This document shows, piece after piece, positions 31,989 to 61,271 of a stretch of 64,000 bases of DNA. The position numbers and the translations under genes are program-made. Below the pieces are notes generated by a model. The model made no database searches. It was not told the DNA's origin and saw only the letters and a program-made list of their open reading frames with translations. Location of the stretch: NCBI GenBank assembly GCA_019750135.1, contig JAIEOV010000009.1:276398-340397 (forward strand), given 5' to 3'. Source of the stretch: Reyranella sp. (lineage in GTDB: Bacteria; Pseudomonadota; Alphaproteobacteria; Reyranellales; Reyranellaceae). How positions within the stretch are numbered: the first letter of the stretch is position 1; each line of letters begins with the position of its first letter.

Positions 31989-33667
<1,679 letters not shown>

Positions 33668-34043: not shown

Positions 34044-34163
34044 TTACGCGGCAGCCCTGAGCGGCCGGGCCCGTTCGATGCGCAGTCGCTCCTTGGGACT
34101 GTGCATCGCCTCCCAAAGATCGCTGCGCCGCTGCACATTCAGCCAGAATGTCCGGGCTGTTAC
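34044..34163 (-). pseudogene. HigA-type antitoxin C-terminal remnant
   Basis: Frame reads VTARTFWLNVQRRSDLWEAMHSPKERLRIERARPLRAAA*, the HigA C-terminus, without an N-terminal HTH. Confidence 0.65.
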
Positions 34164-35632
34164 CGCGTTTCAACCAAGTACCCCATACTTCCTGCGCAAT
34201 CCCAGCCGCCTGGCGTCTTGTGCGCCCGCAACGTACTGTCCTGGGTCTTGCGCGAGAATTTCTTCGAGCAATACGGGCATTGATAGACATAGGTCGGTCC
34301 AAAACTTGTCGTCCGTGAAGGCCGACCGATGCCGCCGCCGAGACCACGCCCCAATCTCCGGCCCAGCCCGCCATCGAAACTTGAACCGAAGCCAACGGAT
34401 GATGACGAACCGCGCGAGGTCGCCGGGATCGATTGCGAACCGCTCGGTGTGAGCTCGATGGCGTATCTCGGCGAGAAGACGCGCGACGTGGACCGCGCGT
34501 TTCCGATGCGATCTGTTCGATAGGTGCGGTGGTCATTGCGCTCCATGTCGAACGCATGCAAGACGACTTGACCGGCTTGTGTCTGGCGCAGCGAGTAGGC
34601 TTCGATCTCCCGTGTCGTGCGCTCGCCGTTTGCCTTCTCGTAGTCAATTTCGACGGTGAGGCGGTTGGCAGCGGCAAAGCGTATGATTTCGACCGCGGAG
34701 GAAACCAGCCCCAGTCCCGACAATGTGCCGAGCGGCTGGCGCAGAACAACGTCACCTTCTGCCAGCGGGAACGCTGCCGGCATGACAGGCCGCAGGCCTC
34801 CGGCCAGCCAGGCGAAGAATTCCGGTAAAGCATCCCAGAAGGCTTGCAGCGGCGGGAGCGCCGGGAGCTGATGCGCGAGCATCGTCTGCCAGTCACCCGA
34901 CAGCTCTTCATAGAATGCCCTGATTGAATCGACTGTCGGCAACTGGATGCCTTTGTAGTCGCACTTGCGGCGCAGGACCCCGAGGATGGCATCGGGCGTC
35001 GGCTGGAAGTCGCCGTGACGAAACAGATTGATGACATCATAGAGGTCGCGCGGACGCGCGCGTTCGCCCAGCGCCCTCACCTTTTCGCCAAAAACCTCTT
35101 CGTAGGCATAGCACCGCGCGTGAATGCCGCCGTCCGGCTGATCGGAATACGGGTGCACGACAGGACGTTCGACCGGCGGCATGGCGATCACTTCGTCCGT
35201 CGTCAGGTCGAGCTTGATGCGCGGAAGGTCGCCGCCTCTGGGCGCGATCGGACCGCGATAGTAGATGCGGCCTTCGGCCGCCAGCTTGTTGCGGCGGTTC
35301 TTGAACACGTCGAACCGTAATCTGTCGGCGGGTATCTCAATGCCTGAGTGCTCGTATATCCACCCTGAGATGTCACCGAACACGCGGGCAAGGAAAGCAG
35401 CGTCGAGATGCGCGTCGCTGGTGATCGTGAAGTCGAGGTCTTCGGAGAAGCGGTAGGTTTCGAAGTAGCACTTCTTGAGACAGGTGCCGCCCTTGAATAC
35501 CCAATGCTCACCGAGTTCCGCATTGGCATGGATGCCTGCCAGCAACCATCCCAGCACGTAATCCTTTTCGACGACTTGAGGCTGCAGACCGAGATTTTGG
35601 GCAAGCTCCATGAGTTCGCGGCGTTCGATCAT
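34160..35632 (-). CDS. AbiEii/AbiGii-type nucleotidyltransferase toxin fused to WYL domain and C-terminal zinc finger
   Basis: VFKGGTCLKKCYFETYRFSEDLDFTI (AbiEii core); IRFAAANRLTVEIDYEKANGERTTREIEAYSLRQTQAGQVVLHAFDMERNDHRTYRTDRI (WYL); YQCPYCSKKFSRKTQDSTLRAHKTPGGWDCAG tail. Confidence 0.85.
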   Translation of the reverse strand: MIERRELMELAQNLGLQPQVVEKDYVLGWLLAGIHANAELGEHWVFKGGTCLKKCYFETYRFSEDLDFTITSDAHLDAAFLARVFGDISGWIYEHSGIEIPADRLRFDVFKNRRNKLAAEGRIYYRGPIAPRGGDLPRIKLDLTTDEVIAMPPVERPVVHPYSDQPDGGIHARCYAYEEVFGEKVRALGERARPRDLYDVINLFRHGDFQPTPDAILGVLRRKCDYKGIQLPTVDSIRAFYEELSGDWQTMLAHQLPALPPLQAFWDALPEFFAWLAGGLRPVMPAAFPLAEGDVVLRQPLGTLSGLGLVSSAVEIIRFAAANRLTVEIDYEKANGERTTREIEAYSLRQTQAGQVVLHAFDMERNDHRTYRTDRIGNARSTSRVFSPRYAIELTPSGSQSIPATSRGSSSSVGFGSSFDGGLGRRLGRGLGGGIGRPSRTTSFGPTYVYQCPYCSKKFSRKTQDSTLRAHKTPGGWDCAGSMGYLVETR

Positions 35633-36462
35633 GAAGGCCGCTCCGTCCTGGCCCGCCGCGCCTGCGACCATGTTTCTGGAATCCAGAGACGCCACCCGCG
35701 GACGAGCCGGGGCGATTTTATGGTCGGATCAAGCTTGGCATTGCCCTGCGTCATTAGTTCACGACAAGCATCGACCAATAATTTCTGTTCTGGCATTGTC
35801 TCCGCGAGAAATCCCATGCGCTTGAACACTGCGCCGTTGCCGAGTTTGTCGGCATAGGCAATCAGCGTCTCAGCATTGGCGTCCTTGTGCTTGAAATACG
35901 CTTCGAAGCAATCCGCCACATGCCGGATGCCGCCGCCCGCGGCGGGGTCGGCCAGCATGTCGATCGTTGTCCGATGCACATCAGAAATCTGGACCTTGGT
36001 TTGGCCGCGCCAGATGCTGCGTGTGCCAAAGAATGCCTCAGGGCGAATGTGCCGGAGCAAAAAGGTGATGCCGTGGACTTCGTGTTTGCGCGATCTGATC
36101 GCCTTGGTCGTGAAGACGAGCGTGTCGCGGAAAAGCTGTTCGGTGAGGTCCCAATGTTCGGCGGCGCTCCAGCCGCCCACATAGGCCGTGCCGAAAAGGG
36201 ACGGCACGAGTATCCATGGATCTTCGAGTACCTGTTCAGTCGCACGGGCGTCGAGCGGGATCGCGACATAGAGGCCGTGGCCGACACGCTGCAGCCAGCG
36301 CTGCGCGTGCCACCGCGCGAGCATCTTGGATGCGCCCTTCCGGTCCATCCGCAGTGCTCTCATAGCGTCTTCGACCCTCACGAGGTGCCCCGCCTGGCCC
36401 AGGACGGCGGCCAAGCGGGCGCGAGGGCCCCTCTGGCCGGTTTGATATAGCTCGGCTGCCAT
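35629..36462 (-). CDS. AbiEi-type antitoxin / wHTH transcriptional regulator
   Basis: RARLAAVLGQAGHLVRVEDAMRALRMDRKGASKMLARWHAQRWLQRVGHGLYVAIP; ATGA overlap with the AbiEii gene. Confidence 0.85.
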   Translation of the reverse strand: MAAELYQTGQRGPRARLAAVLGQAGHLVRVEDAMRALRMDRKGASKMLARWHAQRWLQRVGHGLYVAIPLDARATEQVLEDPWILVPSLFGTAYVGGWSAAEHWDLTEQLFRDTLVFTTKAIRSRKHEVHGITFLLRHIRPEAFFGTRSIWRGQTKVQISDVHRTTIDMLADPAAGGGIRHVADCFEAYFKHKDANAETLIAYADKLGNGAVFKRMGFLAETMPEQKLLVDACRELMTQGNAKLDPTIKSPRLVRGWRLWIPETWSQARRARTERPS

Positions 36463-36474
36463 TGTTCTCTAATA

Positions 36475-36566
36475 ACGTGAATTCCTTCATTCTAACTATA
36501 CCGTATGAACGCAGGGGTTGTGCACAATATTATATTCCAAGCGTTCAAATTCACGTAATTCGTGAA
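36475..36566. promoter_or_regulatory. Candidate AbiE operator: inverted repeats in AT-rich leader
   Basis: ACGTGAATT at 36475..36483 is the reverse complement of AATTCACGT at 36548..36556; TTCACG-TAATT-CGTGAA at 36550..36566. Confidence 0.5.
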
Positions 36567-36741
36567 CTTGAACGTTCGAATTATATCATAAAAAGACGAA
36601 CGATTTCAATGAGTTGACCGCCTAGCCGTCGCGGGCAATCCGGCGCCACGGCGACCGCCATTTCTCGGGAGCGGCTAGATCCCCAACATCTCTGCTCGCC
36701 AGGTCGCACGTCCTGTGCCCGCTACGCCGATCCCTCTTGGC

Positions 36742-38730
36742 TTATAACCCCAACCCCCGGCTTCGCCCGAACGACCAATCCACATCGCCGCTGGGCATGG
36801 CGACGCCGGAGACGGGGCGGCCGATATGCTGTTCGAGCGCGGGCCGCCACGGAACGAGGCTGAAGCCGAGGCCGTCATCGATCATGGCGAACCGGCCGCT
36901 GGCAAGCTGGGTTGAGCCGACAAGCTGGCCCACGACGTGATTGCCAGGAATGGCGGGCCGCCATTCCCGCCCCCGCTCGGCGGCGAGCGCCTTGCCGGCG
37001 CGCTCGATGTCGCGGATCTCAAGCCGCTGGACCAGGTCTTTGGGAGCCCGGATCCGGCCGCCGCCAAGGTCCGTGGCATAGCCCTTACCGGCAAGCCATT
37101 GCCGACGTCTGGCTAACGCCGTGCTCACTTCCTGGCCGAAGCCCTCGTCCGCCAGAGCGGTGCGCTGCCGGGACACCAGCTCGCGGTCTGACCGCGCGGG
37201 TAGGTCGGTCGGGATACGCCACCGGTCCACGTCGATCCGCTCGACATGGCCCGCCCGGCGCAACGCCTCCAGGCGCCGAACATGGGATCGGACGTAGGCC
37301 GCGGGATCGCCACCCAGGCGCTCGATGGCGCCGACGGCCTGCTCCAGATGCTCGGATGGGCGATAGATGCCTTCCTTTCCGGCCATGGCCAGGATGTTGC
37401 GGTCCGAGGCGCGCGAGCCAGCAGGCGCCGCGCCGGCTGCCACGCCCCGCTGGACCTCCTCGGCTCGGGCCGGGTCCATCTCGAGGTGATGGACACGCCC
37501 GTCCACGCCGTCGATGACGAGCCGCACCCGCTCGCCCATCTCGTCGCCGCCCAGGCCCTTGTCGAGCACCCGGCCGACGATGGACTCCGTTGGCTCTCGC
37601 CCGTGGAGGACGTAGCGCCCGATAGCCCGTTGCTCAGCTAGGCCCTCGCGATCGAGCGCCCGGTGCATGGCCTTGATGAGGTCGCCGCGCTCGCCCATCT
37701 CCCACAAGGCGGGCTCGGCCTGGGGCGACACCGTCCAGCGGCCGGTTTCGACTTCAGTGGCGAGGCCCATGCGCTCCAACTTGCGCGCCCGCTGGATCAG
37801 CAGGGCCCGGTTCTGCCAGAGGCTGTCCAGCATGTCCCTGTCTGGCCGCAGGTCGGCGAACTCGTTGCGGCTCCGCTGCTCAGCGATCAGCATGCGGTCC
37901 AACCGCGTGAAGCGATCGGCATCGACCTCCCGGTCCAAGCTGCGCGTGACCTCCTGCTCGGCCTGCCGGCCGAGCTCTTGGGTGACGACATCGCTCGCCG
38001 CTCCCGGATGCCGTGGGCGATGTAGTCGCCGGCGATGTTGAGGGTCTTGCCGTCGTCGGTCATGGAGAATGATGTGGGTGTGGGGATGACCGGTGTTGTG
38101 GTGATCGACCGCGATCCAGTCGCGCCTGGTGCCGAGATCGGCTTCCATCTGCCTCATCAGATCGCGCGTTGTGGCGCGCGGATCGGAGACTTCGACGCCG
38201 TCCTCCGCCAACACGATGAAGCGGAACTGGTGACGGTCTTCACGGCCACGTTAGACGAAGGCTCGGCCATCCTTTAGATCGCGTTCAGCCGAGTAGACTC
38301 CCTTTTCGCCGTCCTTCGTCACGCTGTCGCGTTGGAGATAGCGCAGGTGCGCGTCTACCGCCTTGGCGCTGACGAAAGCACGCCCGCGCGCTGCCCCATC
38401 TTGGGGGTTGAGCTTCACGACCCGGGCCTTGACCGCGACGCGCCGCGACCACGTACGGACCGCTCCGTCCCGGCTCCAGGGGCTCCGATTCTTCAGCGCC
38501 ACCGCCACCGCCGCGCCACGACCACGCGCATTGAACCGGCCGCTTCCCTTCCCGGTCCCGTTCAGGCGGGTGGGGTCGCCGCCGGCCCGGCGAATAGCCT
38601 GCTGGATCTGTCCCGTGAAGCTGGTCGGACGGGCGCGGACCCCACGCGCGCGGCGTCCGCCAAGTCGCTCACTACTCAGATCGCGGATCTTGCCGGGACG
38701 GAGTCGAAAGTCATCGTCATCGCGTGCCAT
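36742..38730 (-). pseudogene. RlxS/VirD2-like relaxase (DUF3363 type), decayed
   Basis: N-terminus MARDDDDFRLRPGKIRDL...GRAFV* (stop at about 38248..38250); reading resumes RGREDRHQFRF...VDHHNTGHPHTHIIL; two compensating indels follow. Confidence 0.8.
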
Positions 38731-38812
38731 GGCATGACGATGGAAGCCGCGCGAAAGCCCGCAAAAGGCTGACTGCACGCGCCGTCGTGCAGAGTGACGT
38801 TGCCCCCAACTT

Positions 38813-39000
38813 TTATCCAGGTGCAACTGGAGTCTGGCGCTGCTCGGTTTGGTCGGTGGTAAGGGGCCAAGGCGCGAAGCCTTTCGCGAGCGCAGCGCCT
38901 TGGCCCCGTTGCGTCGAGAGCTGCTCGGCATAGGCGGCGGGCGTCAGCCAGCCGATGCGCGAATGGGGGCGCACGGTGTTGTACAACAGGGTTTTGAGAA
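38813..39000 (-). pseudogene. IS3-family transposase C-terminal remnant
   Basis: LLYNTVRPHSRIGWLTPAAYAEQLSTQRGQGAALAKGFAPW. Confidence 0.7.
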
Positions 39001-44814: not shown

Positions 44815-45624
44815 TTAGGCATCTGGGCCGGAGAGTGTGGACCAGCGCGCACTGCTTGCCTGTTCACGCAGACCGGCGATGTGCGCCTTGAGCGCGCGGA
44901 AAATGACGCCACGATCGTCACCCACAAGAAAGCTGCGCACGCCGCGCCGAAGCCATTGGCCCAGCTGCCCATCGGCCCGCGGAACGGCGCAGTACGGGAC
45001 GCCGGCGACCCGGCTACGCTCGGCGATCAAGTCCAGCGCCGTCAGCACGTCGGCGTGCTGAGGCTGACAAGGGACCCCAAACGACTGAGAAAGGTCGATC
45101 GCGCCCTCGATCACCAAATCGACGCCCTCAACGGCCACAATGTCATCGATCGCTTCGACGCCTTCCCGGTCCTCGATCATTACCGCGACCAGAATCTCGG
45201 TGTTGGCGAGGGCCATGTAGTCAGGCAGGCTCAGCGTTCCGAAGCCGGTCGTCCGGCCACCCGAGATGCCGCGCGCTCCCACGGGGTGGTAACGGCTGGC
45301 GCGGACGGCGATGCGCGCCTCTTCGGCAGAGCACACATGGGGTACGACAATTCCCTGCGCGCCGGCATCGAGCACCCGGAGAATTACATCGGGCTGCGCG
45401 CCGGGAACGCGCACGAGTGGAGTGACGTCGCAGCACTCGGCGGCGCGGATGAGGTTCTCCAGCGTTTCCGGGTTGGGGCTCACATGCTCCAGGTCGAGGA
45501 TGACAAAGTCGTAGCCTGCGTACCCGAGCATCTCCACCAGAAGGGGCGCCGGCACCGAGTTGATCAGGCCGAAGAGTGGCGTGTCGCCGCGCAGCGCGCG
45601 CTTGAACCTATTCGGCCGCAACAT
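44815..45624 (-). CDS. HpcH/HpaI aldolase family, SbnG-like citrate synthase
   Basis: PLFGLINSVPAPLLVEMLGYAGYDFVILDLEHV...GIVVPHVCSAEEARIAVRASRYHPVGARGISGGRTTGFG; in NIS siderophore operon. Confidence 0.8.
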   Translation of the reverse strand: MLRPNRFKRALRGDTPLFGLINSVPAPLLVEMLGYAGYDFVILDLEHVSPNPETLENLIRAAECCDVTPLVRVPGAQPDVILRVLDAGAQGIVVPHVCSAEEARIAVRASRYHPVGARGISGGRTTGFGTLSLPDYMALANTEILVAVMIEDREGVEAIDDIVAVEGVDLVIEGAIDLSQSFGVPCQPQHADVLTALDLIAERSRVAGVPYCAVPRADGQLGQWLRRGVRSFLVGDDRGVIFRALKAHIAGLREQASSARWSTLSGPDA

Positions 45625-46843
45625 TCACAGCTTCGTCGATCGGCAGGAAGATCGTCTCGGGATGCGGATGCCGTAGAAAATCGTGGTGAGAAATGTGCCA
45701 CGCGTAGGCGCCTGCGAGGGGGAAGAGCAACACGTCGCCCACCCGCACGCGGTCGACCGGCGCTTCGGTCGCCAGCACGTCCTTCGGGGTACAGAGCTGG
45801 CCGACCACAGTAACGGCCTCACGGACGGCTTCGAGTCTCCGGTAGGGCCGCCGCCAGGGCTCGATCGGCAGCACGCGGAACGGATGACTGTGGCTCTGGG
45901 CGTAAGGGGTGCGGAAATGATGGGTACCGCCGCGCGCGACGACGAACGTCCGACCGAAGGTGCTTTTGATATCCAGCACCTCCATGGCGTAGACGCCGCA
46001 GCCCGCGGCGACATACCGGCCCATTTCGAACCGCAGACGCCAGCCCTTCAATCCGCGCCGCGCCACGAGTTGGGCGAGCCCGGCGCTGAAGACCGGCCAG
46101 TCGAAGACTTGCTCGGGATCGCGGTAGTTGATGCCGATGCCGCCGCCGACGTTGATGTGCCGGACCTCCAGCCCGTGCTCACGGTTCCACGATTGGACGG
46201 TGCGCACATAGCCGTCGATCAGCGCCAGATGAGCCGCCGCGTCGCGCTGACCCGACATGAGGTGGAAGTGAAACCCCTCCAGGCGCAGCTCGGGATGGTC
46301 GGCGAGCCAGGCCAGGCATTCGCCCAACAGCGCGATATCGATCCCGAACGGCGTCGCCCGCCCGCCCATGGCGAGCGGCACGTCCGGCATTTCCGTGAGC
46401 GGCAAGTTCATGCGCAGCAGGATCGCCGGCCTCACACCTATGCGCCGGGCGAGAACGCCGAGCCGCTCCAGCTCGCCGAGGCTTTCGACGTGGATGCGCT
46501 CGACGCCTGCATCCAGGGCGGCCACCAGCTCCTCGTCCGTCTTGCCGGGGCCGCCGAAGATCAGCGGCGCCTGCGGGCAATGCTCGCGCAGCCAGGCGAG
46601 TTCGCCCGACGAAGCGATCTCGAAGCCCGCCACGATCGGGGCGAGCGTCCGGAGGATGGGCGCATCCGAATTCGCCTTCGCCGCATAGAACAGCTCGAAC
46701 TCGGGCGGCAGGCTGGCGACGAGGCCGCCGGCGTGGCGGCGCAGCGCCTCGAGGTCATAGAGATAGGCGCACCAGGGGCTCGTCGCCGCCGCCTTGGCCG
46801 CAGCGGCCGCGCGCGAGATTTTCGGCCAATTGGGCAGCATCAT
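45608..46843 (-). CDS. PLP-dependent decarboxylase (PvsE/SbnH-like)
   Basis: YLYDLEALRRHAGGLVASLPPEFELFYAAKANSDAPILRTL...GFEIASSGELAWL...HINVGGGIGINYRDPE. Confidence 0.88.
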   Translation of the reverse strand: MMLPNWPKISRAAAAAKAAATSPWCAYLYDLEALRRHAGGLVASLPPEFELFYAAKANSDAPILRTLAPIVAGFEIASSGELAWLREHCPQAPLIFGGPGKTDEELVAALDAGVERIHVESLGELERLGVLARRIGVRPAILLRMNLPLTEMPDVPLAMGGRATPFGIDIALLGECLAWLADHPELRLEGFHFHLMSGQRDAAAHLALIDGYVRTVQSWNREHGLEVRHINVGGGIGINYRDPEQVFDWPVFSAGLAQLVARRGLKGWRLRFEMGRYVAAGCGVYAMEVLDIKSTFGRTFVVARGGTHHFRTPYAQSHSHPFRVLPIEPWRRPYRRLEAVREAVTVVGQLCTPKDVLATEAPVDRVRVGDVLLFPLAGAYAWHISHHDFLRHPHPETIFLPIDEAVNVAAE

Positions 46844-48657
46844 ACCATCTCCGGGTTGAAGGGGCTGGGCAGCGGCACATATCCCGCGAGCCGGTCAGCC
46901 TGTTTGAGGAAGCGTGTCGTCAGGTTCGCCTTGGCCGGCAATGGCGCGCCGCCAAGGAGGTCGTCGAGTCGCCGCCCGGCGCGAGGCCCGAGCCCCGCCC
47001 GACAGGCCTGAACCTCGCGGCGGACGATTTCCCACAGCCGCCTGTGAAGCTTGGAATCGCCGTCCGCCAGATGATGCACGGCCTCGCTTAGCTGGTTCAC
47101 CAGAAGGCAGTAGGCGATCCGGTTCCAACCGCGCTCCTCGTCGTACCACAAGGCAGATTGAGTGCGCGCGTCGAGGGATGCGATGCGGATCGGGTCGAAG
47201 CGCCCCTCGACGAGCTTCACGCCTTCGAAGTCGCGCAGGATCATCCGGTCCGGCCAACCGTCGCGCAGTCCGATCAGGGTGTTCTGCAGATGAGGTTCGA
47301 ACACGAGGCCATGGACCAGCAGTGCGTGCAGCACTGGCGGAACAAGCCGTTCCACATAAGCCGCGAACCAGGCCTCGACCGTGGCGGCGAGCGGCGAGCG
47401 GTCGCGCCGGGCGATGGAGCGGCACCAGTCATGCGCCCGCGGCAGGCCGGTCGGCCAATCCGAGAACAACGCCGCCGCCAGGACGGGCGTCGTCCCTCCG
47501 GCTACGAGCGGCTGAACGCCATCGCGCAGGATGAGGCCGAACGCCTCGTTCACGGCGATGCGCTCGTCCGGGTCGGCGTCGGGCAGATCCACGGTTAGGA
47601 AGCCTGGCTCGGACAGCACGGCGAAGCCTGGGAACGTCGTGGTCAGCTCCGGCAGCAAGGTGCGCAGAATTCGAGTCACGGCGATCGCGCCATCAAGCTC
47701 GTAAACTGCGTTCTTGCGCAGGCAGTTGGTGATCCGCACGTGAAGCGACAGCTTGTAGAAATACGGGTTGCGGGGGTGGAACAGCGTGCGGATCGAGGAG
47801 GTCGGGACGTAGGCCTCGCCCTGCGCACCGAGGTCGCGCAATTGCCCGCTCCGCAAGGCGCGCTGCACCGCCGGCAGCTTGCGGATGTGGCCGGCCTGCC
47901 AGGGGTGCACGGGCGCCAACGCGTAGCCTGGGGGCAGGGCGAGGCCGGATTGTTCCAGGACGACCTCATCCGGCATGCGGTCTAGCAAGCTCGCCTGCCG
48001 CAAGTGGTCGCGGGGTACGGCGAAGTAATGCAGGGGAAATCGCACTCGGAGTTCCGGCGAGTAGGTCCGTCGGTCAGCGCTGGTGAAGCCTTGCCGACTC
48101 TTGGGCGCGGGATGGAAGGCGTGGCCCGCGACCAGCGCCTGTTCAGACTCGATGTAGTGGCTCAGACCATCGGTCGGTGGAGCCGGCCACACCCGGCCGG
48201 CAAGGATGGTGCTCACCGTTTCCACGCTGTCGCAGACCTGGGCGAGCAGCTCCTCGTTGAATGGCGTTTCGTACCTGGCTGACAGCTCTCTCAGCAGCAG
48301 GGCGGCGAGCGCGCGCCACTCGACCGGCGCCCAGGGCTGCCCCGGCGAGCGGGCGTAGACCGGCGAGCGGTGACGGTATCGGTCGGAGCCGGCGGGCGGA
48401 TCGACCGCCACGATCAGGCGGGCGCCGGTTCTGGGCAGGACGACGTGCAGCGCCTGCCCGCCGGGCAGGGCGGCTCGCAGGCCAAGCGGCCAGTCATTTT
48501 CTCCGAAAGGGGCGCCGAGGCTGACCTGGCCCTCCGGCGCCGCGGCTTCGCGGCAATAGCAGTTCAGAAGGGTCTGCATGCCGTGACGGGCCGCGTCCGC
48601 CGCCGCGGCGGCCTCGGGATTCGGGAGCGCCTCGAGCGAGGTGGTGGTGAAAGTCAC
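46840..48657 (-). CDS. IucA/IucC family NIS siderophore synthetase (PvsD-like)
   Basis: GHAFHPAPKSRQGFTSADRRTYSPELRVRFPLHYFAV...PVHPWQAGHI...LVHGLVFEPHLQNTLI. Confidence 0.9.
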   Translation of the reverse strand: MTFTTTSLEALPNPEAAAAADAARHGMQTLLNCYCREAAAPEGQVSLGAPFGENDWPLGLRAALPGGQALHVVLPRTGARLIVAVDPPAGSDRYRHRSPVYARSPGQPWAPVEWRALAALLLRELSARYETPFNEELLAQVCDSVETVSTILAGRVWPAPPTDGLSHYIESEQALVAGHAFHPAPKSRQGFTSADRRTYSPELRVRFPLHYFAVPRDHLRQASLLDRMPDEVVLEQSGLALPPGYALAPVHPWQAGHIRKLPAVQRALRSGQLRDLGAQGEAYVPTSSIRTLFHPRNPYFYKLSLHVRITNCLRKNAVYELDGAIAVTRILRTLLPELTTTFPGFAVLSEPGFLTVDLPDADPDERIAVNEAFGLILRDGVQPLVAGGTTPVLAAALFSDWPTGLPRAHDWCRSIARRDRSPLAATVEAWFAAYVERLVPPVLHALLVHGLVFEPHLQNTLIGLRDGWPDRMILRDFEGVKLVEGRFDPIRIASLDARTQSALWYDEERGWNRIAYCLLVNQLSEAVHHLADGDSKLHRRLWEIVRREVQACRAGLGPRAGRRLDDLLGGAPLPAKANLTTRFLKQADRLAGYVPLPSPFNPEMV

Positions 48658-48672
48658 GGGTCGTCTCCTGGA

Positions 48673-49848
48673 TCAGGGAAATTGCGGACGAGCCCTGGGT
48701 GTCCGGGTGGCGAGGAGGTAGAGGACGCTGGGAGCCAGCACGGCGGCACCGATCAGGAACGGGCTGGCGCTTCCCGTCGCCTGGCTGATCGCGCCTGCAG
48801 CCAGGCCGGCCGCGACGCCGCCCCATTTGGAGGCGCTGTCCAGGCGTCCGAAGATGCGTCCAGCGTTTTCAGCGTGGGCGATTTCTGAAATCGCGCCGTT
48901 CAGGCCGATGAATCCGGCGGTCATGGTGAGCCCCATGAGCACGCGCCAGGCGACCAACGCGGGGAGGCCGACCGCCAGAGCCTGGCCGACGAGGCTGGCG
49001 GCGAGCAACACGAGGGCGATCGCCAGGGTCAAGGTCAGACGGCTTTGCCCGAGACGCAGGCTGAGCGGACCGGCGCCGACCAGGTAGACGAAGTGAGGCA
49101 GGCCAAACAGTGCCCCGGCCATCCCGCCGGGAAGTCCAGGCGCGATGCTTCGCGCGAACTCGATGAAGTAGGGGAAGGTGACGACCGTCGAGAACGCGAA
49201 GGCGAACTGAAGGATCGCCAGACGCCGCACGCCCGGAACGCCGTTTGCCGACGCGACGACCGCGCGTTCCTTGGCCGGGCCGTCCGCGGCCGGGGCCGGG
49301 GCCGGCAGCCGCCAGATCAGCAGCGCGGAAATCAGCGGCAGAAGCGCCAGCCAGCGATACAGCTCCAGGGGAGAGCCCATCGTCATGAAGGCGCCCAGCA
49401 GCGCCGGCGCCACCACCAGGGCTGCGCGCGCCGAACCCTGCATCAGCGTCAGAGTCCGCGTGAGGTTGCTGCCGCTGGTCACTGTGGCGAGGTAGGCGTT
49501 TGAGGCGGAGAAGGTGCCGCCGAGCAGGCCTTGAAGCGCCAAGGCTGCGATGAAGGTCGGCACGTTGGTGGCGAAGCCGGCCATCAAGAAGCTGCCCGCC
49601 AGACCAAGCTGAGCGCGCAGCAGCATGGTCTTCTTGCCGAAGCGGTCGCTCAGATCTCCCCAGATCGGCGCGCTTAGCGCGGTCATCAGGGGCGGCAGCA
49701 CGTAGCACCAGCCGGCGAGCCAGGTCGTCTGGCTGCCGAGAGAGTCCCGCAGGATGATCGGGAAGAACGGCGGCATCCCCAGCGCCGAGAACGACGCCGT
49801 GAAATGCCCGACGACAATGGTCGCCACGGTCCAGCGCGGCGGGCTCAT
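48673..49848 (-). CDS. MFS transporter (siderophore exporter, PvsC-like)
   Basis: MFS TM pattern; LSAPIWGDLSDRFGKKTMLLRAQLGLAGSFLMAGFATN; coupled within the NIS operon. Confidence 0.85.
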   Translation of the reverse strand: MSPPRWTVATIVVGHFTASFSALGMPPFFPIILRDSLGSQTTWLAGWCYVLPPLMTALSAPIWGDLSDRFGKKTMLLRAQLGLAGSFLMAGFATNVPTFIAALALQGLLGGTFSASNAYLATVTSGSNLTRTLTLMQGSARAALVVAPALLGAFMTMGSPLELYRWLALLPLISALLIWRLPAPAPAADGPAKERAVVASANGVPGVRRLAILQFAFAFSTVVTFPYFIEFARSIAPGLPGGMAGALFGLPHFVYLVGAGPLSLRLGQSRLTLTLAIALVLLAASLVGQALAVGLPALVAWRVLMGLTMTAGFIGLNGAISEIAHAENAGRIFGRLDSASKWGGVAAGLAAGAISQATGSASPFLIGAAVLAPSVLYLLATRTPRARPQFP

Positions 49849-51656
49849 GACGCCCTCAGGAAGTTCGGCGCGGTCTCGCCATAGAACTTGTTGACGTCCG
49901 CGGCTCCGGTGCTCGCCTTGCTCTCCAGGCTCGCGGCGCGAAGCAGGTACTTCAGCGGCAGACGCTCGGCCTGCAGAAGCGCGCGACGTGCAAGAGTTAC
50001 GTCCTCGCTGTCCGCCGCGAGGTCGTCGAGGGCGGCGCTTAGCGCCTCGCGCACGCGACGATAGAAATCGTCGCGCGTCGCATGCCCGGCCTCCGCCATG
50101 GCCTCGACCAGGACGGCGAGATTAAGCTGCAGCGTGATGGTGATGAACATGCGCGCGAGCGCCATCGGATCGTCGACGACGATCCGCCGGTCCAGGAGAC
50201 CGTCGAGCCAGGGCGACAGATCCGATCGGCGGCTCGCCAGACGCGCGCCGTCTATGCGCGCCGCGTCGTTGTCCTTCAAAAGCAGGCGCAACGGCGAGCC
50301 GGCGGACAGCGCCAGCATCGAGTTCTGCTGGTTCGACTCCAACGCCACGCCGTAGCGGATCCACAGCGTCAGGTGCAGCCGCGCGGTGAGCTCGAGATAC
50401 TCCTCGAACAGGCGCAGCAGGTCGCCGCCCCGATGCCGGTCGGCCAGGGTCTCGATGACCAGCCGTCGATCCGGTCCGCGCGCGGCCAAAGCGGCGACGG
50501 GAGCGACGTCCTCGTCGCGCAGCGTGTCCGGATAGCGGCGCAGGATGAAGCCGAGGAACGGCTGATCGGCCACGCAGCCGCCCACTTCCTCGTCAGTCAA
50601 CAGAAGGCGATGGCCAAGCTCCGGCAGGTCCGCGGCGATCGCCTTCAGCATGGTCTGAACCCCGTGGCCGTCGCGGATGGTGCTGGGCTTGATTGTGCGG
50701 AGGTTCCGCGTGCCCAGAGTGCGCATCACCAGCGGAAGCTTGATGTGGTGCGACGGGCAGCCGAGCACCGCGACGGTGCGGACCGAAAGGGTCGGCGTGA
50801 CCTTCAGCCAGGGGAGCGGCGCGCGCACGACGCGTTCGGTCAGGCCGCTTTCAGCCAGATAGCCGTCCAGTGCGCCGGTCCACATCGCACCGTGCACCGG
50901 CAGCAGTACGTGGTCGCCCGCGAGGTCCTCCGGCAGCCCGACATCGGCAAACCGGGGCGCGATGTGGGCCGGCAGGTCGGCGCCGCGGTACAGCGCTCGC
51001 GGCGCGGCGACCCAATGCAGCTCGAAGATTGGCTGGAATTCCGGCGCGTAGGCACGCAGGTCCGCTTTGCTGAAGCCAAGCTTGGCTCTGGCCGTCGGAT
51101 AGAAGGGATGGTCGTGGAAGGCGGCGAGACGGTCATGCCTGAGCAGGCTCGCCGCCCACGTCGGCCAGTTCGCCACGCCGCCGTCGTTGTCGGCGAACCA
51201 GCGCGAGCGTTCAGCCGCGCACCAGGCGCCGTGCTCCTCGGCCACGCGGCACTCTTCTGCAAAGGCCTCATGGAAGCCGCGGGTCTCGGCGTCCAACCCG
51301 GCGCGGAAGTGGCGCAGAATGCTCGCTAGGTCGGTCAGGGCTTGCGCCTGGCCGTCGACGCAGGCGATGGCGGGCAGCGACCGCAGACGCCATTCCTGCA
51401 TGAACCGGCAAGGCTCGACCGGCAACCAGAGTACAACGCCCGCGAGTTCGGCCCCCAGCCATCCGCCCGACCGCAGAGCCGGGTCGAGCTGATCGGCGAA
51501 GGAAAGGGCGGTCCCCTTCTCGATGCGGCCGCGGCTCATGCAGCCGCGCACGTCCTCGCGCAGCACGGCATCGAGCACCCGCCGGGTGAGGCGATCGGGC
51601 GCGATGGCGCCGATCGTCGACGGCACGGCGACGGTCTGGCAGGCGAGGGAGCTCAC
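49845..51656 (-). CDS. IucA/IucC family NIS siderophore synthetase (PvsB-like)
   Basis: DHPFYPTARAKLGFSKADLRAYAPEFQPIFELHWVA...LPVHGAMWTG...YGVALESNQQNSMLAL; C-terminus NKFYGETAPNFLRAS. Confidence 0.9.
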   Translation of the reverse strand: MSSLACQTVAVPSTIGAIAPDRLTRRVLDAVLREDVRGCMSRGRIEKGTALSFADQLDPALRSGGWLGAELAGVVLWLPVEPCRFMQEWRLRSLPAIACVDGQAQALTDLASILRHFRAGLDAETRGFHEAFAEECRVAEEHGAWCAAERSRWFADNDGGVANWPTWAASLLRHDRLAAFHDHPFYPTARAKLGFSKADLRAYAPEFQPIFELHWVAAPRALYRGADLPAHIAPRFADVGLPEDLAGDHVLLPVHGAMWTGALDGYLAESGLTERVVRAPLPWLKVTPTLSVRTVAVLGCPSHHIKLPLVMRTLGTRNLRTIKPSTIRDGHGVQTMLKAIAADLPELGHRLLLTDEEVGGCVADQPFLGFILRRYPDTLRDEDVAPVAALAARGPDRRLVIETLADRHRGGDLLRLFEEYLELTARLHLTLWIRYGVALESNQQNSMLALSAGSPLRLLLKDNDAARIDGARLASRRSDLSPWLDGLLDRRIVVDDPMALARMFITITLQLNLAVLVEAMAEAGHATRDDFYRRVREALSAALDDLAADSEDVTLARRALLQAERLPLKYLLRAASLESKASTGAADVNKFYGETAPNFLRAS

Positions 51657-52858
51657 GCGCGGATGTCCCAGATCAGGCTGGACTGCGCAGTCTGCACGGC
51701 GGCCGCCAACGTGTCCGTGTCGACGGCGCTGGCGCTGAGGACGCCCAGATAATCCTTGTTCGAATGGGTCACGACGACGCGGTCGCCCGGCCGGCGCAGC
51801 GCGCGATAATGGACGCGCACGTCAGCCTCTTCGCGCAGGAAGCCCGCCGGCGCCGCAATGACCTCGCCAGGGCGGTCGGCTGCGAAATAAAGGATTGCGG
51901 CCGCTCGATCGGCGACGTCGCACTCGCCGAGCGGTTCGCCGAGATGCAGGCGCAGAATCTTCTCGAACAGCGAGATGCCCAGCGTGTGCTCGAGCATGAA
52001 GTCCCGGTGATCGCCGACCGTGCGGTAGTTGATCTCGATGAGGCGCGGACCGTCGTCGGTGAGCACAAATTCGGTGTGACATGAGCCGAAGCCGACGCCG
52101 AAGGCGGTGAGTTGGCTCAGCACGGCCTGCTTTTGGGCGGTCGTCAGCCAATCACCCCAGCGCGCCTCCAACTCCACGAAGTTGGGCGGCGGCCCCAAGG
52201 TGACGCGAAAGCCCCCGAGGACGCGAATGTCTGAGCCGTCGCCGAGCGTCTCGAGCGTGTAGAGATCGCCCGCCACGAACTCCTCGAGCAGCATCGCGCG
52301 GCCCGGCTGGGCGCTCCAGACGCTGCGGCAATGAGAGGCCAGTTCGTCTCGATCCTGGCATTGGCGAACCTGCTGGCTGCCGACCCCTTCACGGGGCTTG
52401 GCCACGCAGGGGAAGGGCACGCCGGACAGGCCCGCAAGCTCGGCTTCATTCGTCACGACGGCATGCCACAAGGTGTCCAGACCCTGATCGCGCAGGAAGG
52501 CGCGCATGGCGGCCTTGTTCTTCGCCCGGTAGGCCACTCGCCAGTCCTTGCCGGGGAGGCGGAAATACTCGGCCGCGAGGGCGGTGCTGGTCTGTAGGTG
52601 GTCGCTATTGGAGAAGACTGCGACAGGACGCTCGCCGCGCCCGCTGATCTGGTTGACGACCGCCACCGGGTTGAACACGTCGCAGGCGACGATCTCGCCC
52701 GGATAGGCCGGCAAACCAGGCGCGGCGAAGTGGCGCCTGTGCGCCTCAACGTTGTCGGTGAGCAAGGTCACAGAAAGCCCAAGACGACGGGCCGCAGGAA
52801 GGAAGCCCTCATTGACCGACTCGGTCGGCACATGGGCGAGCAGGACGAGATTGGCCAT
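51653..52858 (-). CDS. ATP-grasp ligase (PvsA-like)
   Basis: GVPFPCVAKPREGVGSQQVRQC...MLLEEFVAGDLYTLETLGDG...GFGSCHTEFVLTDDGPRLIEINYRTVGDH; first gene of the operon. Confidence 0.87.
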   Translation of the reverse strand: MANLVLLAHVPTESVNEGFLPAARRLGLSVTLLTDNVEAHRRHFAAPGLPAYPGEIVACDVFNPVAVVNQISGRGERPVAVFSNSDHLQTSTALAAEYFRLPGKDWRVAYRAKNKAAMRAFLRDQGLDTLWHAVVTNEAELAGLSGVPFPCVAKPREGVGSQQVRQCQDRDELASHCRSVWSAQPGRAMLLEEFVAGDLYTLETLGDGSDIRVLGGFRVTLGPPPNFVELEARWGDWLTTAQKQAVLSQLTAFGVGFGSCHTEFVLTDDGPRLIEINYRTVGDHRDFMLEHTLGISLFEKILRLHLGEPLGECDVADRAAAILYFAADRPGEVIAAPAGFLREEADVRVHYRALRRPGDRVVVTHSNKDYLGVLSASAVDTDTLAAAVQTAQSSLIWDIRA

Positions 52859-52926
52859 GAGGGGACAGCTCCATTCATTAAGTCGCAATTCAGCTGCGCA
52901 GCAGCTGCGGTGGGGTCTATCTATAT

Positions 52927-52943
52927 ATGCGAATGAGTCGCAA
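52927..52943. promoter_or_regulatory. Candidate iron-responsive operator upstream of the ATP-grasp gene
   Basis: ATGCGAATGAGTCGCAA (reverse complement TTGCGACTCATTCGCAT); partial dyad TGCGA-ATGAG-TCGCA; near-copy upstream of TonB receptor. Confidence 0.5.
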
Positions 52944-52964
52944 TTGCAATAGAAAAAATACAGT

Positions 52965-53213
52965 TAGGCGCATCAATGAGCGCCAAGATCTTGGTCGTCA
53001 TACCGCCGTTGGAGCGGCCTATGGCCTGGCTCTGAGTCCCCTTTTGCGGCCAGGCCGTGACGATGGACCTTGACGATGGTGGCATCGACCATGGCGCATT
53101 CCATGTGCGGCTCGTCCGAGCAGGCCTCGAAAAGCCGGACGAAAACATCGGCTTTGACCCAGTGGCGATAGCGCTTGAACACCGTGTTCCACTTGCCGAA
53201 GAGCGTTCGCCGC
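52965..53213 (-). pseudogene. IS5-family (IS427-like) transposase N-terminal remnant
   Basis: GKWNTVFKRYRHWVKADVFVRLFEACSDEPHMECAMVDATIVKVHRHG and, in another frame, TQSQAIGRSNGGMTTKILALIDA. Confidence 0.75.
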
Positions 53214-53390
53214 GTACTCCGCAGTGAAGCGCGCCAAGTCGGTGTCGCAGGCACGCTTGGGCACGATATTGATCGTGCCACCGACGCTGCTTTGGGCGAC
53301 ATGCCATAGAGGACCGTGCTCGGCCCCTTGGCCGCAAATCCTCGCCAAGAATGTCGATACCGTTGGCGCCGTAATGCGCGACCACGGCGG
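53214..53390 (-). pseudogene. TonB-dependent receptor plug-domain remnant interrupted by the IS5 fragment
   Basis: KGPSTVLYGMSP and, in a second frame, SSVGGTINIVPKRACDTDLARFTAEYA, ending where the IS5 frame begins. Confidence 0.65.
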
Positions 53391-53439
53391 TCGCGCGAAC
53401 GGCGAAAGCCGTGCTTGCCGTCGGGCAAGCCAGATACCA

Positions 53440-55539
53440 TCAGAGATTGGTCGTCAGGCTCAGCATGAAGGCGCGTCCAGGCCCAGGCACACGGCCGACC
53501 GGGCTGGTATCGACACCCCGGAAATAGTAGTCGGTATCGAGTGCGTTGTTCACCGTGAACGCGGCCGTGACGTTGCGGCCACCACGGACTTCGAAGTCGC
53601 GAGCCAGCCGGAGATTGAGCAGCCAGTAACCGGGAACTTGACCGATCGTACCGGTCAGATCTTCGGCTACGGTATTGGCCGCATCGGTGAACGCATTGCT
53701 CTGGTAGTATCCTGTAGCGCCGAAACTGTAGGGACCCGTCCGATAGAAGGCGCCAAGACTCAGCAAGTGTTGCGACGCGAACGGCACTCTGTTGCCAGCA
53801 TATTGTCCAGACTGCAGCCGAGCGTCCAGGAACGTATAGGCGGCGCGGATTGCAGCACCAGGAAAGATGGCGGGCTGCCAGTTCGCCTCGAGTTCGAACC
53901 CTTGGTGCAAAGTCTGTCCAAGGTTGAGAAAACGCTGGGAGAAGCGGTCGAAGTCGATCTGCGCGGAGAAATCGAAGCGGAATGCCGTCGCACTGAAGTC
54001 GAGCCCAGGCATTGGAAACAGGCGGAAACCCACCTCATAGTTCCAGGCCACTTCCGCCCCGACATCCCCGCCACGTGTCACTTGTGCAACCTGCGGCGGA
54101 CGTAGCGACTTATGCAGGTTTGCGAACAAGAAGATCTCGTCCGACAACCGGTAGCCGATATCGAGGCCCGGTAGCAGCTCCTGACTGATGTTGCGGGAGG
54201 CGTTGCGGGCGATGTTGTCGCGAAAGGCGGTATCCACGTATTCGTAGCGCAGACCAGGGGTGATCTGGAGCTTCCCGTTCAGGAACCTGACCGTGTCGTT
54301 GGCATAGAATGCGTAGGCATTGGTATCGAAGCGCCAGTCGCGTTGGCGTGTGGTCGCGCGAGTGCGCAAGTTGTACTGGTCGACGACGAAATCGACTCCC
54401 TCGCGCACATAACGGGCACCGAGGGTAATTGTCTGGTCGATGCCACCAGGCTTGATGTTCCAGCCCACACGCGGCTCTAGCCCAAAGACACCGAAGGAAC
54501 GCGGGCTGGTGGATACTACGGCCGGCATCAGGGCGGGATTGAATGGTTCGGAAAAGGTGAAGCTGCGGCTGCTTCCGTGACCGAATGCGAGCAAACTGAA
54601 CTCAGCCGTATCATCGATTGCATGGGTGTAGACCGCGGAGCCTCGCCAGGTTTTGCCTCCAAAGGCATCATACGGTCGCTGCGACTGCCATCTGTTCTGC
54701 TGGTAGGCCTGGGGTGTAAGGGCGCCGGGCAGTTCTGCGTTGGCTTGGTAGAACTGAAATTGTCCCTTCAATTGAGCATCGTCGCTAATATGCCAATCGG
54801 CATCGAGCAACACGTTGTATGCCGCCGTGTTTGAGTGATCCCGACTGCCTGCGCCTTTGATGGCATTGAGTTGAAGCTGCATGCCGAGATTGGATGTGAC
54901 CAATCCACCAGCGCGCATGTAGGTGTCCGTAAGGGCGTTGCCCGTGTGATCCGCCACCGTCACCTGCTCGGACAGCGTGTAGCTGGGTGCCGTCGGTATG
55001 GGCCGGGAGATGAAGTTTATCACGCCGCCTACGTTGTTGGGGCCATAGCGCACGGCGGCACCGCCTCGCACGATGTCGATACGGTCGATGGTCTGCATCG
55101 TGACGGGAAAGAGCGAGAGCCCGGTTCCGGTATAGGGCGCAAGCGCGAGCGGTACTCCATCGAGCAGCACTTGGGCGCGCTCACTGCGAGCCGGATTGAG
55201 TCCACGAATCCCGAAGTTCGGCAACAGGCCCGTACCTGTCTCATCCTGCACAATGACTCCTGGGGACTGGCGCATTGCATCTTCGAGATTTCGGGCGCCC
55301 GACTCGCGCAAGGCCCGATCGGAGAGGACGGTTCTTGCGCCAGGATAGGTTCGCACCGCCTTCTCGGATCCGTCGCCAAGCCACTCCCCGACGACCTGCA
55401 CCTCGGGTAGTTGAACAGTTGTGTCGCTCTGTTGCGTCGGCTGAGGCGTCTGCGCAGCGGCGGCAAGCGGCCAGACGAGTCTACCGAAACCCACGATTGC
55501 TGCTGCGGACAGGAGTGTCCGCACGCTTCCCTTCAACAT
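53440..55539 (-). CDS. TonB-dependent siderophore receptor (FecA/PvuA-like)
   Basis: VQLPEVQVVGE...NLEDAMRQSPGVIVQDETGTGLLPNFGIRGLNPARSERAQVLLDGVPLALAPYTG...IDIVRGGAAVRYGPNNVGGVINFISRPI. Confidence 0.93.
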   Translation of the reverse strand: MLKGSVRTLLSAAAIVGFGRLVWPLAAAAQTPQPTQQSDTTVQLPEVQVVGEWLGDGSEKAVRTYPGARTVLSDRALRESGARNLEDAMRQSPGVIVQDETGTGLLPNFGIRGLNPARSERAQVLLDGVPLALAPYTGTGLSLFPVTMQTIDRIDIVRGGAAVRYGPNNVGGVINFISRPIPTAPSYTLSEQVTVADHTGNALTDTYMRAGGLVTSNLGMQLQLNAIKGAGSRDHSNTAAYNVLLDADWHISDDAQLKGQFQFYQANAELPGALTPQAYQQNRWQSQRPYDAFGGKTWRGSAVYTHAIDDTAEFSLLAFGHGSSRSFTFSEPFNPALMPAVVSTSPRSFGVFGLEPRVGWNIKPGGIDQTITLGARYVREGVDFVVDQYNLRTRATTRQRDWRFDTNAYAFYANDTVRFLNGKLQITPGLRYEYVDTAFRDNIARNASRNISQELLPGLDIGYRLSDEIFLFANLHKSLRPPQVAQVTRGGDVGAEVAWNYEVGFRLFPMPGLDFSATAFRFDFSAQIDFDRFSQRFLNLGQTLHQGFELEANWQPAIFPGAAIRAAYTFLDARLQSGQYAGNRVPFASQHLLSLGAFYRTGPYSFGATGYYQSNAFTDAANTVAEDLTGTIGQVPGYWLLNLRLARDFEVRGGRNVTAAFTVNNALDTDYYFRGVDTSPVGRVPGPGRAFMLSLTTNL

Positions 55540-55594
55540 CAAAATTGTCCCCCCCCCAAAATTTGCCGCGATCAGGGGTCGCATCTAATCGATA

Positions 55595-56149: not shown

Positions 56150-57925
56150 TCAAGTGTCTGTAAACATTGGAACTTGGTTTTCGGGATCGACGCGACACGG
56201 GCGACCTTTCCGGCGGATCGCGTGGTTGCTCACGCCAAGCAGCTTGGCGGCTTCGCCCATCGTCAGCCACTCGCCGGTCTTCTCCGCCGAAGGGTAGGCA
56301 CGAATCCCATGCACCCTGCGCAGCGAACTGACACGATGCGCGGTCCAGGTTTTTCCCTGACCCGTCGGCATCCTCATCCGGTTCAACGACGCGGCGATGT
56401 CTTCGTCCGACCATCGGGTCGCTATGCTCCGCATGACGGCGAGGGCATCTTCGGGAGTGCGGCAGCCATGCTCGCCGGATTTTAGCTTGCGGACCCGAAG
56501 CTGCGAGTGCTGACCGCCCCGCCAATGGACCGTCAGCACGACCTCGCGTGCCGCCTCGTCGATGTCGGCGATGATGTCGGTGACCAGGGCGCGCAGGAGC
56601 CTTTGGCGGGCGCGCATGCTCACGCCCGCTGCATTCCACGCGGCTTCGAGGTCTTCTGCCAAACCGGCAAAGTTCGGCACAATGGCGGCCGGGTCCGGTG
56701 TCCGCACCGCCTGCAGCCGCGCCTCGCACGCCTCGACGCGCCGCAGCGCTGCTTCCCAGCTCTTCTCGAGCTGCGCGGCGATCAGGCGATTGTCGGGATC
56801 GCAGGCAGCGTAGCGTCGCTCCGCCAGCAAGGCTTCGTAGCGCGCCTGCTGAAGCTCGAGTTCCACGATGCGCTGCTGTTCGTCCCGGCTTTCCACGTGC
56901 AGTCTCTCGGCTTCCCGGGCCGCCTCGATCGCCATCGGTTCGACGGCGCGCAGAAGCTCCCGGGCAATGGCCGCGTCGACACGGGGTCCGCTGAAGGTCA
57001 GACACCGCGGCAGCCCCAACATCAGGTTGGGTCGGTCGCAGCGATAGACCGGCTGTCCCGGCGAGCGGCCCGAGTAGCTTACCACCAAGCGGCGGCCGCA
57101 ACGCCCACAGGACAGCAGCCCGGCCAGCAACGCCCGTCCGCCGCGCCGCCCAAGCTCCAGGGTGACGATCTCGCTTGCCCGCTCGCGGACACCGTGGGCG
57201 ATGTAGTCGCCGGCGATGTTGAGCATCTTGCCGTCGTCGGTGACGCCCCGCAGGAGGATGTGGGTGTGGGGATGGCCGGTGTTATGGTGATCGACCACGA
57301 TCCAGTCGAGCCGGGTGCCGAGGTCGGCTTCCATCTGCTTCATCAGATCGCAGGTAGTCTCCCGCAGGTCGGACAGTTCCACACCTTCTTCGGCCGAGAC
57401 GATGAAGCGAAACTGGTGGCGGTCCTCGCGGCCGCGGTCGAGGAAGGCGCGATCGTCCGCCACGTCACGGTCGGCCGAATAGATCTGGCCCTTCTCGCCG
57501 TCCCTGGTGACGCCGTCACGTTGGAGGTAGCGCAGGTGCGCGTCGACCGCCTTGGCCCTGGCGAACAGCCGACCGCGCCGAGCGCCGCGCTGCGGGTTGA
57601 GCTTCACGACGCGCGCCTTGACCGCGACCCGACGCGCCCGGGTGCGGTTGCCACTCCCGTCCCGGCTCCAGGGGCTGTGGTTCTTCAGCGTCACTGCCGC
57701 CGTCGCGCCACGGCCGCGCTCATTGAACCGGCCACCGCCCTTCGTCGCGGCCGCGCCCAGCCGATCGGGGGTGCCGCCGGCCCGCCGAAACGCCTGATGG
57801 ATCTCGCCCATGAAGCTGGTCGGACGGGCCCGGACCGCACGGACACGGCGGCCGCGCGGGCGCGCGATGCGACGGTCGTCAACCTTACCGGGCCGGATGC
57901 GGAAATCGTCGTCGTCGCGTGCCAT
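56150..57925 (-). CDS. Chimeric protein: RlxS-like relaxase N-terminus fused in frame to serine-recombinase zinc-ribbon/coiled-coil/HTH C-terminus
   Basis: MARDDDDFRIRPGKVDDRR...VDHHNTGHPHTHILLRGVTDDGKMLNIAGDYIAHGVRERASEIVTLELGRR joined to GGRALLAGLLSCGRCGRRLVVSYSGRSPGQPVYRCDRPNLMLGLPRCLTFSGPRVDAAIARELL...GEWLTMGEAAKLLGVSNHAIR. Confidence 0.85.
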   Translation of the reverse strand: MARDDDDFRIRPGKVDDRRIARPRGRRVRAVRARPTSFMGEIHQAFRRAGGTPDRLGAAATKGGGRFNERGRGATAAVTLKNHSPWSRDGSGNRTRARRVAVKARVVKLNPQRGARRGRLFARAKAVDAHLRYLQRDGVTRDGEKGQIYSADRDVADDRAFLDRGREDRHQFRFIVSAEEGVELSDLRETTCDLMKQMEADLGTRLDWIVVDHHNTGHPHTHILLRGVTDDGKMLNIAGDYIAHGVRERASEIVTLELGRRGGRALLAGLLSCGRCGRRLVVSYSGRSPGQPVYRCDRPNLMLGLPRCLTFSGPRVDAAIARELLRAVEPMAIEAAREAERLHVESRDEQQRIVELELQQARYEALLAERRYAACDPDNRLIAAQLEKSWEAALRRVEACEARLQAVRTPDPAAIVPNFAGLAEDLEAAWNAAGVSMRARQRLLRALVTDIIADIDEAAREVVLTVHWRGGQHSQLRVRKLKSGEHGCRTPEDALAVMRSIATRWSDEDIAASLNRMRMPTGQGKTWTAHRVSSLRRVHGIRAYPSAEKTGEWLTMGEAAKLLGVSNHAIRRKGRPCRVDPENQVPMFTDT

Positions 57926-58191
57926 GAGACGACGATCGGAAGCCGTGAGAAGGCCTACAAGAGGCGAGCGGCGGTCGTCGTACCGTGGCGTAGAACGACG
58001 TGCGCCAGCGTAGGTTGACCGGTCCACACTTCGCGGCGACGGCGCTCGGCACCTTGTAAACAAAGGGAAAAGCGGCACAAGCGCCGCACCCGCTCCTCGG
58101 CGGGTCGTCACGAGCGGAGCGGCAAACAACGTGCAGACAGGCTTTCAGGCGCATGGCGCCGACAGCGGGGCAACCCGCTTTATCTTGCCGT

Positions 58192-60931: not shown

Positions 60932-61271
60932 GCCGCGGCTTCCCTGGCCAGACTGTCGGTCTCGCCCCAACCGAAGCGATCATCCAAAAGGACGTCGAAT
61001 GCATGATCTGAGCGTGCGGTCGTGTTCATCTTTACTCCCGCCTATGCATAGTGAGGTCCCAGATTGTAACTCTGCTCCTTCGTGTAGGTCAGGCTAAAGT
61101 GCCGAATCGAAATCGGTCGTTTTGGCACACACTGCCTAAGGGCGCGGCCGCCCACGGCCTGTGCCAGATCATGGTACGATGGCGGCTTATCGGAGGACGA
61201 GAGCCGGCGAACAAAGAAACCGAATGGACCGCCTCGACCGCGGGAAGCTTCCTCTTGCAGTGGGGTTCGAT

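Follow-up and report, generated by a model that had tools for sequence, protein, structure and literature searches.

Organisation of an AbiE-type module beside a serine recombinase

Within the window (the whole 64,000-nt stretch of Reyranella sp. DNA that was analysed), a single unbroken ORF on the minus strand codes for an AbiEii-like toxin of 490 aa (34160..35632, with an ATG at 35632 and a stop codon ending at 34160). Although an in-frame GTG lies upstream at 35695, we place the start at the ATG, since its M-I is also where the relatives start. As the earlier note had proposed from four peptides, all of which were found in this frame, the ORF combines AbiEii and WYL domains: Pfam places AbiEii at residues 30-269 (E 2e-40) and WYL at residues 314-380 (E 5e-10), both above curated cut-offs. 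Combining these matches with an alignment of relatives, an AlphaFold model (mean pLDDT 84.5) and Foldseek searches, we divide the protein into a nucleotidyltransferase (NTase) domain (residues 1 to about 280; 34793..35632, minus strand), a WYL domain (about 308-395; 34448..34711, minus), a charged, disordered linker (about 399-444; 34301..34438, minus) and a zinc-type module (about 446-490; 34163..34297, minus). All parts except the linker, which the AlphaFold model leaves disordered at 399-441, are modelled with confidence. In the host genome, no AbiEii match was found other than the window's toxin gene.

The toxin gene is preceded on the same strand by an abiEi-like gene for an antitoxin/autorepressor of 277 aa (35629..36462, minus), whose last 4 nt (ATGA) are shared with the start of the toxin gene. 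Its product matches the PADLOC AbiEi model with an E of 1.6e-117, falls below threshold for Pfam AbiEi_4 (E 0.008) and below cut-off in NCBIfam, contains a wHTH-type region, and has no sequence match among solved structures. Upstream lies a strong sigma-70-like promoter (TTGAAA-18-TATAAT with a TG before the -10; 36580..36609, minus) that agrees with the consensus at 11 of 12 positions. It is overlapped by an imperfect palindrome of 25+25 nt (36531..36585, minus), a candidate AbiEi operator, although in only 17 of 77 upstream regions of relatives was a palindrome better than those in all 25 shuffles. The bicistronic abiEi-abiEii order is shared with the AbiE system of Streptococcus agalactiae (PMC3985639), and the palindrome would correspond to the inverted repeat at the promoter of that system.

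The module sits between two genes, one for a large serine recombinase (32000..33667, minus) and one of the DUF3363 relaxase type (36742..38214, minus), whose 5' part appears to have been split off at 38251-38931. Because the 3' end of the recombinase gene overlaps a tRNA-Arg(ccg) gene (31989-32065), integration at the tRNA is suggested; no second attachment-site copy of the tRNA-Arg end was found in the window. The DUF3363 region is present in two diverged copies (36742-38931 and 56150-58129), 19.2 kb apart and about 73-92% alike in blocks, and the second continues in frame into what resembles a serine recombinase's C-terminal half, an arrangement that a deletion might have produced. Inspection by eye placed a siderophore-like (NIS synthetase-type) cluster with an MFS transporter, a decarboxylase and a TonB-dependent receptor at 44815-55584, and a heavy-metal P-type ATPase-like gene at the end of the window (61161-63758).

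An intact nucleotidyltransferase joined to a WYL domain, a basic linker and a zinc-type module

Using the motif definitions of PMC3985639, where motifs I-IV were needed for AbiEii toxicity, we located motif I (KGG 47-49), motif II (R61...D65xD67, with the x15 spacing also found in the S. agalactiae protein), motif III (K184/R191) and motif IV (R195 D196xxD199), and found all of these residues to be invariant in 49 aligned relatives. The active site is thus intact; degenerate residues there would, by the earlier note's own criterion, have counted against its reading. Together with the upstream AbiEi gene, this integrity bears out the assignment as an AbiE-type toxin. The best structural match of the NTase half was MenT3/TglT of M. 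tuberculosis (6j7q, 8xhr; Foldseek E 5e-7), which shares 12-14% identity and lacks a C-terminal tail. Model confidence is also low at residues 50-62, close to the catalytic motifs in the region of the active site. S63 lies two residues ahead of the first motif II Asp, and from the MenT3 sequence we presume that it may be the counterpart of the regulatory S78 of that protein. Whereas classic AbiEii proteins of about 300 aa have no WYL domain, charged linker or zinc module, the window's toxin has all three.

Structure prediction and Foldseek yielded a genuine WYL fold, as the note had expected, with matches to PafBC, BrxR and the ssDNA complexes of CapW and DriD. Together with conservation and Pfam, they describe an Sm-like SH3 barrel with a conserved basic ligand groove. 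R318, N323, Y331, E344, Y346 and L358 are invariant, and the basic residues R318/R369/R372/R375 are conserved among relatives; among the best 80 of 235 relatives, the position of R372 holds 70 Arg and 7 Lys and R375 is kept in 69, so that the pair is about 87% conserved. By motif spacing, the Y371/R372/R375 loop is equivalent to the F210/R211/R214 loop of PafB, the arginines of which PafBC needs in order to bind ssDNA (PMC11804915, PMC6789036). The letters W-Y-L themselves are not retained, as in many members of the family. While the fold and the Y/F-R-x-x-R loop are shared with PafBC, DriD, CapW and BrxR, in those proteins the WYL domain is joined to an HTH and controls transcription, whereas here it is joined to a toxin enzyme.

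The linker, recognised by its low AlphaFold confidence, was net positive in all 75 relatives compared (median +5, against a median of -7 for the rest of the protein). Its sequence varies among them while its charge stays positive, and it is rich in S, R, P, A and T (15.6% R, 1.8% D+E). The glycine richness first noted proved peculiar to the window's copy, with G making up only 6% of the linker across the 75 relatives, and was dropped as a defining feature.

The C-terminal module, predicted to be an all-beta fold, has the pattern Cx2Cx15Hx7C (C452-x2-C455-x15-H471-x7-C479), with ligands invariant in 49 aligned members. The C-terminal zinc finger of the earlier reading therefore stands as a Cys-Cys-His-Cys zinc-type module, though not as a standard C2H2 beta-beta-alpha finger: the CCHC ligands and the all-beta model speak against the latter, as do zinc-finger Pfam models below cut-off on the toxin (zf-C2H2_4, E 0.014). 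Zn_ribbon_8 was weakly matched in 16 of the 49 members, and the module alone had no significant structural match (best Foldseek E 0.29). We also considered whether it might be a mobile domain of other proteins and rejected this, since a search of viral contigs and of the genomes of 399 Pseudomonadota revealed no other architecture. It returned only two degraded tail remnants, one (L100:1414-1791) beside probable transposase frames that resemble the IS66 type, the other (L098:3892-4495) within a degraded plasmid copy.

Distribution of the family and its genomic neighbours

Searching genome contigs by tblastn, with one genome per species, we obtained 235 relatives that passed, of which the 80 best were retrieved; these counts are lower bounds, since peptide patterns with KKCYFETY may miss relatives with KKCFFETY, a form that does occur. 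The best 80 share 45-76% identity over essentially the whole query. Their source genomes, which include many MAGs, are proteobacterial, deltaproteobacterial, acidobacterial, nitrospiral and other, with some relatives on plasmids. Nearly all of these 80 keep the complete toxin layout, with frame breaks in a handful (L020, L036, L046, L063, L076), and such full-length relatives across many phyla rule out an artefact or chance fusion as the source of the ORF. This architecture search, which the note had called for, also showed that all 49 aligned members match Pfam AbiEii and WYL as well as PADLOC PDLC02317, a model that spans AbiEii and WYL but whose match stops at residue 403, leaving the zinc module and the greater part of the linker uncovered. 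In all of the best 80 loci the AbiEi gene lies directly upstream of the toxin gene, overlapping it by 4, 8 or 11 nt in 63.

The tail varies in places. On the NTase tree, two relatives without the zinc module (L144, and L142, which has a basic tail) nest inside full-architecture forms, as do, with weak support, the tail-less L140, L141 and L105. All five retain AbiEi, which implies that an AbiE module can do without the tail. Conversely, the retrieved flanks of a divergent plasmid lineage (L095, L096, L136) contain no AbiEi match; its members all keep the WYL domain and two of the three keep the zinc module, and by eye L095 and L096 lack the WYL arginine pair.

The prevalence of the family is low. 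We counted five AbiEii-WYL genes of the clade in 385 Alphaproteobacteria, the window's included, and three of the five encode the zinc module; PF08843 was matched in 91 of 299 Pseudomonadota, with the window's frame the only one longer than 500 aa. No close copies of the module were found in the annotated phage set. One IMG/VR viral contig (L103, 5136-8359) carries a full AbiEi/AbiEii-WYL-zinc module with what by eye are phage-like replication genes around it and a SIR2-like ORF after it.

Among the best 80 loci, nine have hsdM downstream on the same strand, adjacent to the module in seven and, in two, after one or two genes (by eye Fic-like and HipA-like). This is far above the number expected in the 3 kb that follow on that strand, about 0.03, a Poisson figure that takes no account of how defence genes cluster in general and is based on 237 matches in 200 genomes (a density of roughly 0.32 per Mb at an assumed genome size of 3.7 Mb). 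Pfam confirmed the hsdM identity in three representatives. The neighbouring hsdM genes form three groups that are only 20-33% alike, and about six changes are counted on the tree. No hsdM was found in the window's own genome, and none of the window's genes was recognised as belonging to type I restriction. Other neighbours were seen at single loci: a defence-type RT (L055/L056), an LmuB-like gene (L054), a ThsB-like TIR gene (L048) and a CD-NTase (L095). Directly downstream of the module, three loci carry a related gene of unassigned family (L055:6537-7967, L056:6497-7927, L065:9522-10880), of which the L056 copy matches neither Pfam nor PADLOC at E 1e-5.

Possible roles of the tail in an AbiE-type toxin

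Taken together, we regard the locus as very probably a type IV toxin-antitoxin module. AbiEi would repress its own promoter and neutralise the toxin; once freed, the AbiEii NTase would add nucleotides to RNA, and the resulting arrest of growth would abort phage infection or stabilise the element. The likeliest target is the 3' end of tRNA, as in MenT relatives, with the reservation that the best-matching tRNA-modifying structures share only 12-14% identity. We further infer, on good grounds, that the tail of Sm-like WYL domain, positive flexible linker and CCHC zinc module probably binds nucleic acid, and our best overall explanation, to which we assign a probability of about 0.55, is a type IV AbiE module on a mobile element, with a toxin that is adjusted by its nucleic-acid-binding tail. 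In favour of this reading we also count the hsdM, RT, LmuB-like and TIR neighbours; against it stand the zinc module's want of a significant structural match and the relatives that lack part or all of the tail. That the tail responds to a ligand by gating the toxin is a tentative proposal at slightly under even odds. Assembly or RNA binding, instead of sensing, can also be the task of a WYL domain. Were the tail to gate the toxin, the preferred trigger would be single-stranded nucleic acid arising from infection or damage.

The strongest competitor, which we consider possible though clearly less probable than the main reading, holds that the WYL domain, linker and zinc module dock the substrate, holding tRNA or another RNA for the NTase while AbiEi alone exerts control and nothing is gated. 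RNA is a common ligand of both Sm-like WYL folds and zinc modules, the linker is positive in all 75 relatives, and the NTase substrates of the superfamily are tRNAs (PMC11541572; PMC10435456); yet single-domain AbiEii/MenT proteins work without such a tail, and the WYL domains in the cited literature are ssDNA-responsive or nucleic-acid-sensing modules. The charged linker and zinc module might instead contact DNA, making the tail a part of a co-repressor that, with AbiEi, ties toxin level to operator occupancy by conditional cooperativity and without any sensor. The overlap of palindrome and promoter would fit such an arrangement, but this is improbable in view of the poor recurrence of the palindrome in relatives, the wHTH-type region that AbiEi already has, and the retention of the tail in the plasmid lineage without a detectable AbiEi neighbour. 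We give equally little credence to an ordinary addiction module of a mobile element with an inert or merely structural tail: the serine recombinase, relaxase-type gene and tRNA-Arg adjacent to it in the window, the plasmid-borne relatives and the ability of AbiE to stabilise plasmids (PMC3985639) all accord with addiction, whereas WYL arginines and zinc ligands conserved at 45-60% overall identity, and the association with restriction operons, argue against an inert tail.

A more specific and rather unlikely elaboration of ligand gating is that the tail is a direct nucleic-acid sensor within a tRNA-modifying toxin, such that ssDNA or RNA from failed restriction or phage replication would license the NTase, and the module would then serve type I restriction as a ligand-gated back-up fuse. 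Its operation might be partly AbiEi-independent, as suggested by the AbiEi-less lineage that keeps the tail. A parallel to this proposal is offered by the PrrC/RloC-type anticodon nucleases linked to type I restriction, translation-blocking effectors encoded inside or beside an hsd locus. They belong to a different enzyme family, and the hsd link of AbiEii-WYL proteins consists of gene adjacency in a minority of loci.

The fusion itself is known in outline: Makarova et al. listed WYL with an 'AbiGII-like nucleotidyltransferase (DUF1814)' in 2014, in a single sentence of a paper in which the word zinc does not occur, and proposed ligand sensing (PMC4012209). The note's statement that it knew of no characterised example must be qualified by this listing and by the existing PADLOC model, but holds for function, as our literature search, which took in few subscription papers, returned no experiment or functional study on the AbiEii-WYL-zinc subfamily, nor any description of the zinc module, charged linker or hsd association, which thus seem to be undescribed. 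The AbiE of M. huakuii, considered as a characterised example, appears to be of another subfamily, its AbiEi having 221 aa. Few predicted phage-defence modules are commoner than AbiE; by carrying within the toxin a domain of a type known to sense ssDNA, the present subfamily, which occurs in many phyla and repeatedly lies directly before hsdM, makes the question of the trigger testable in one protein.
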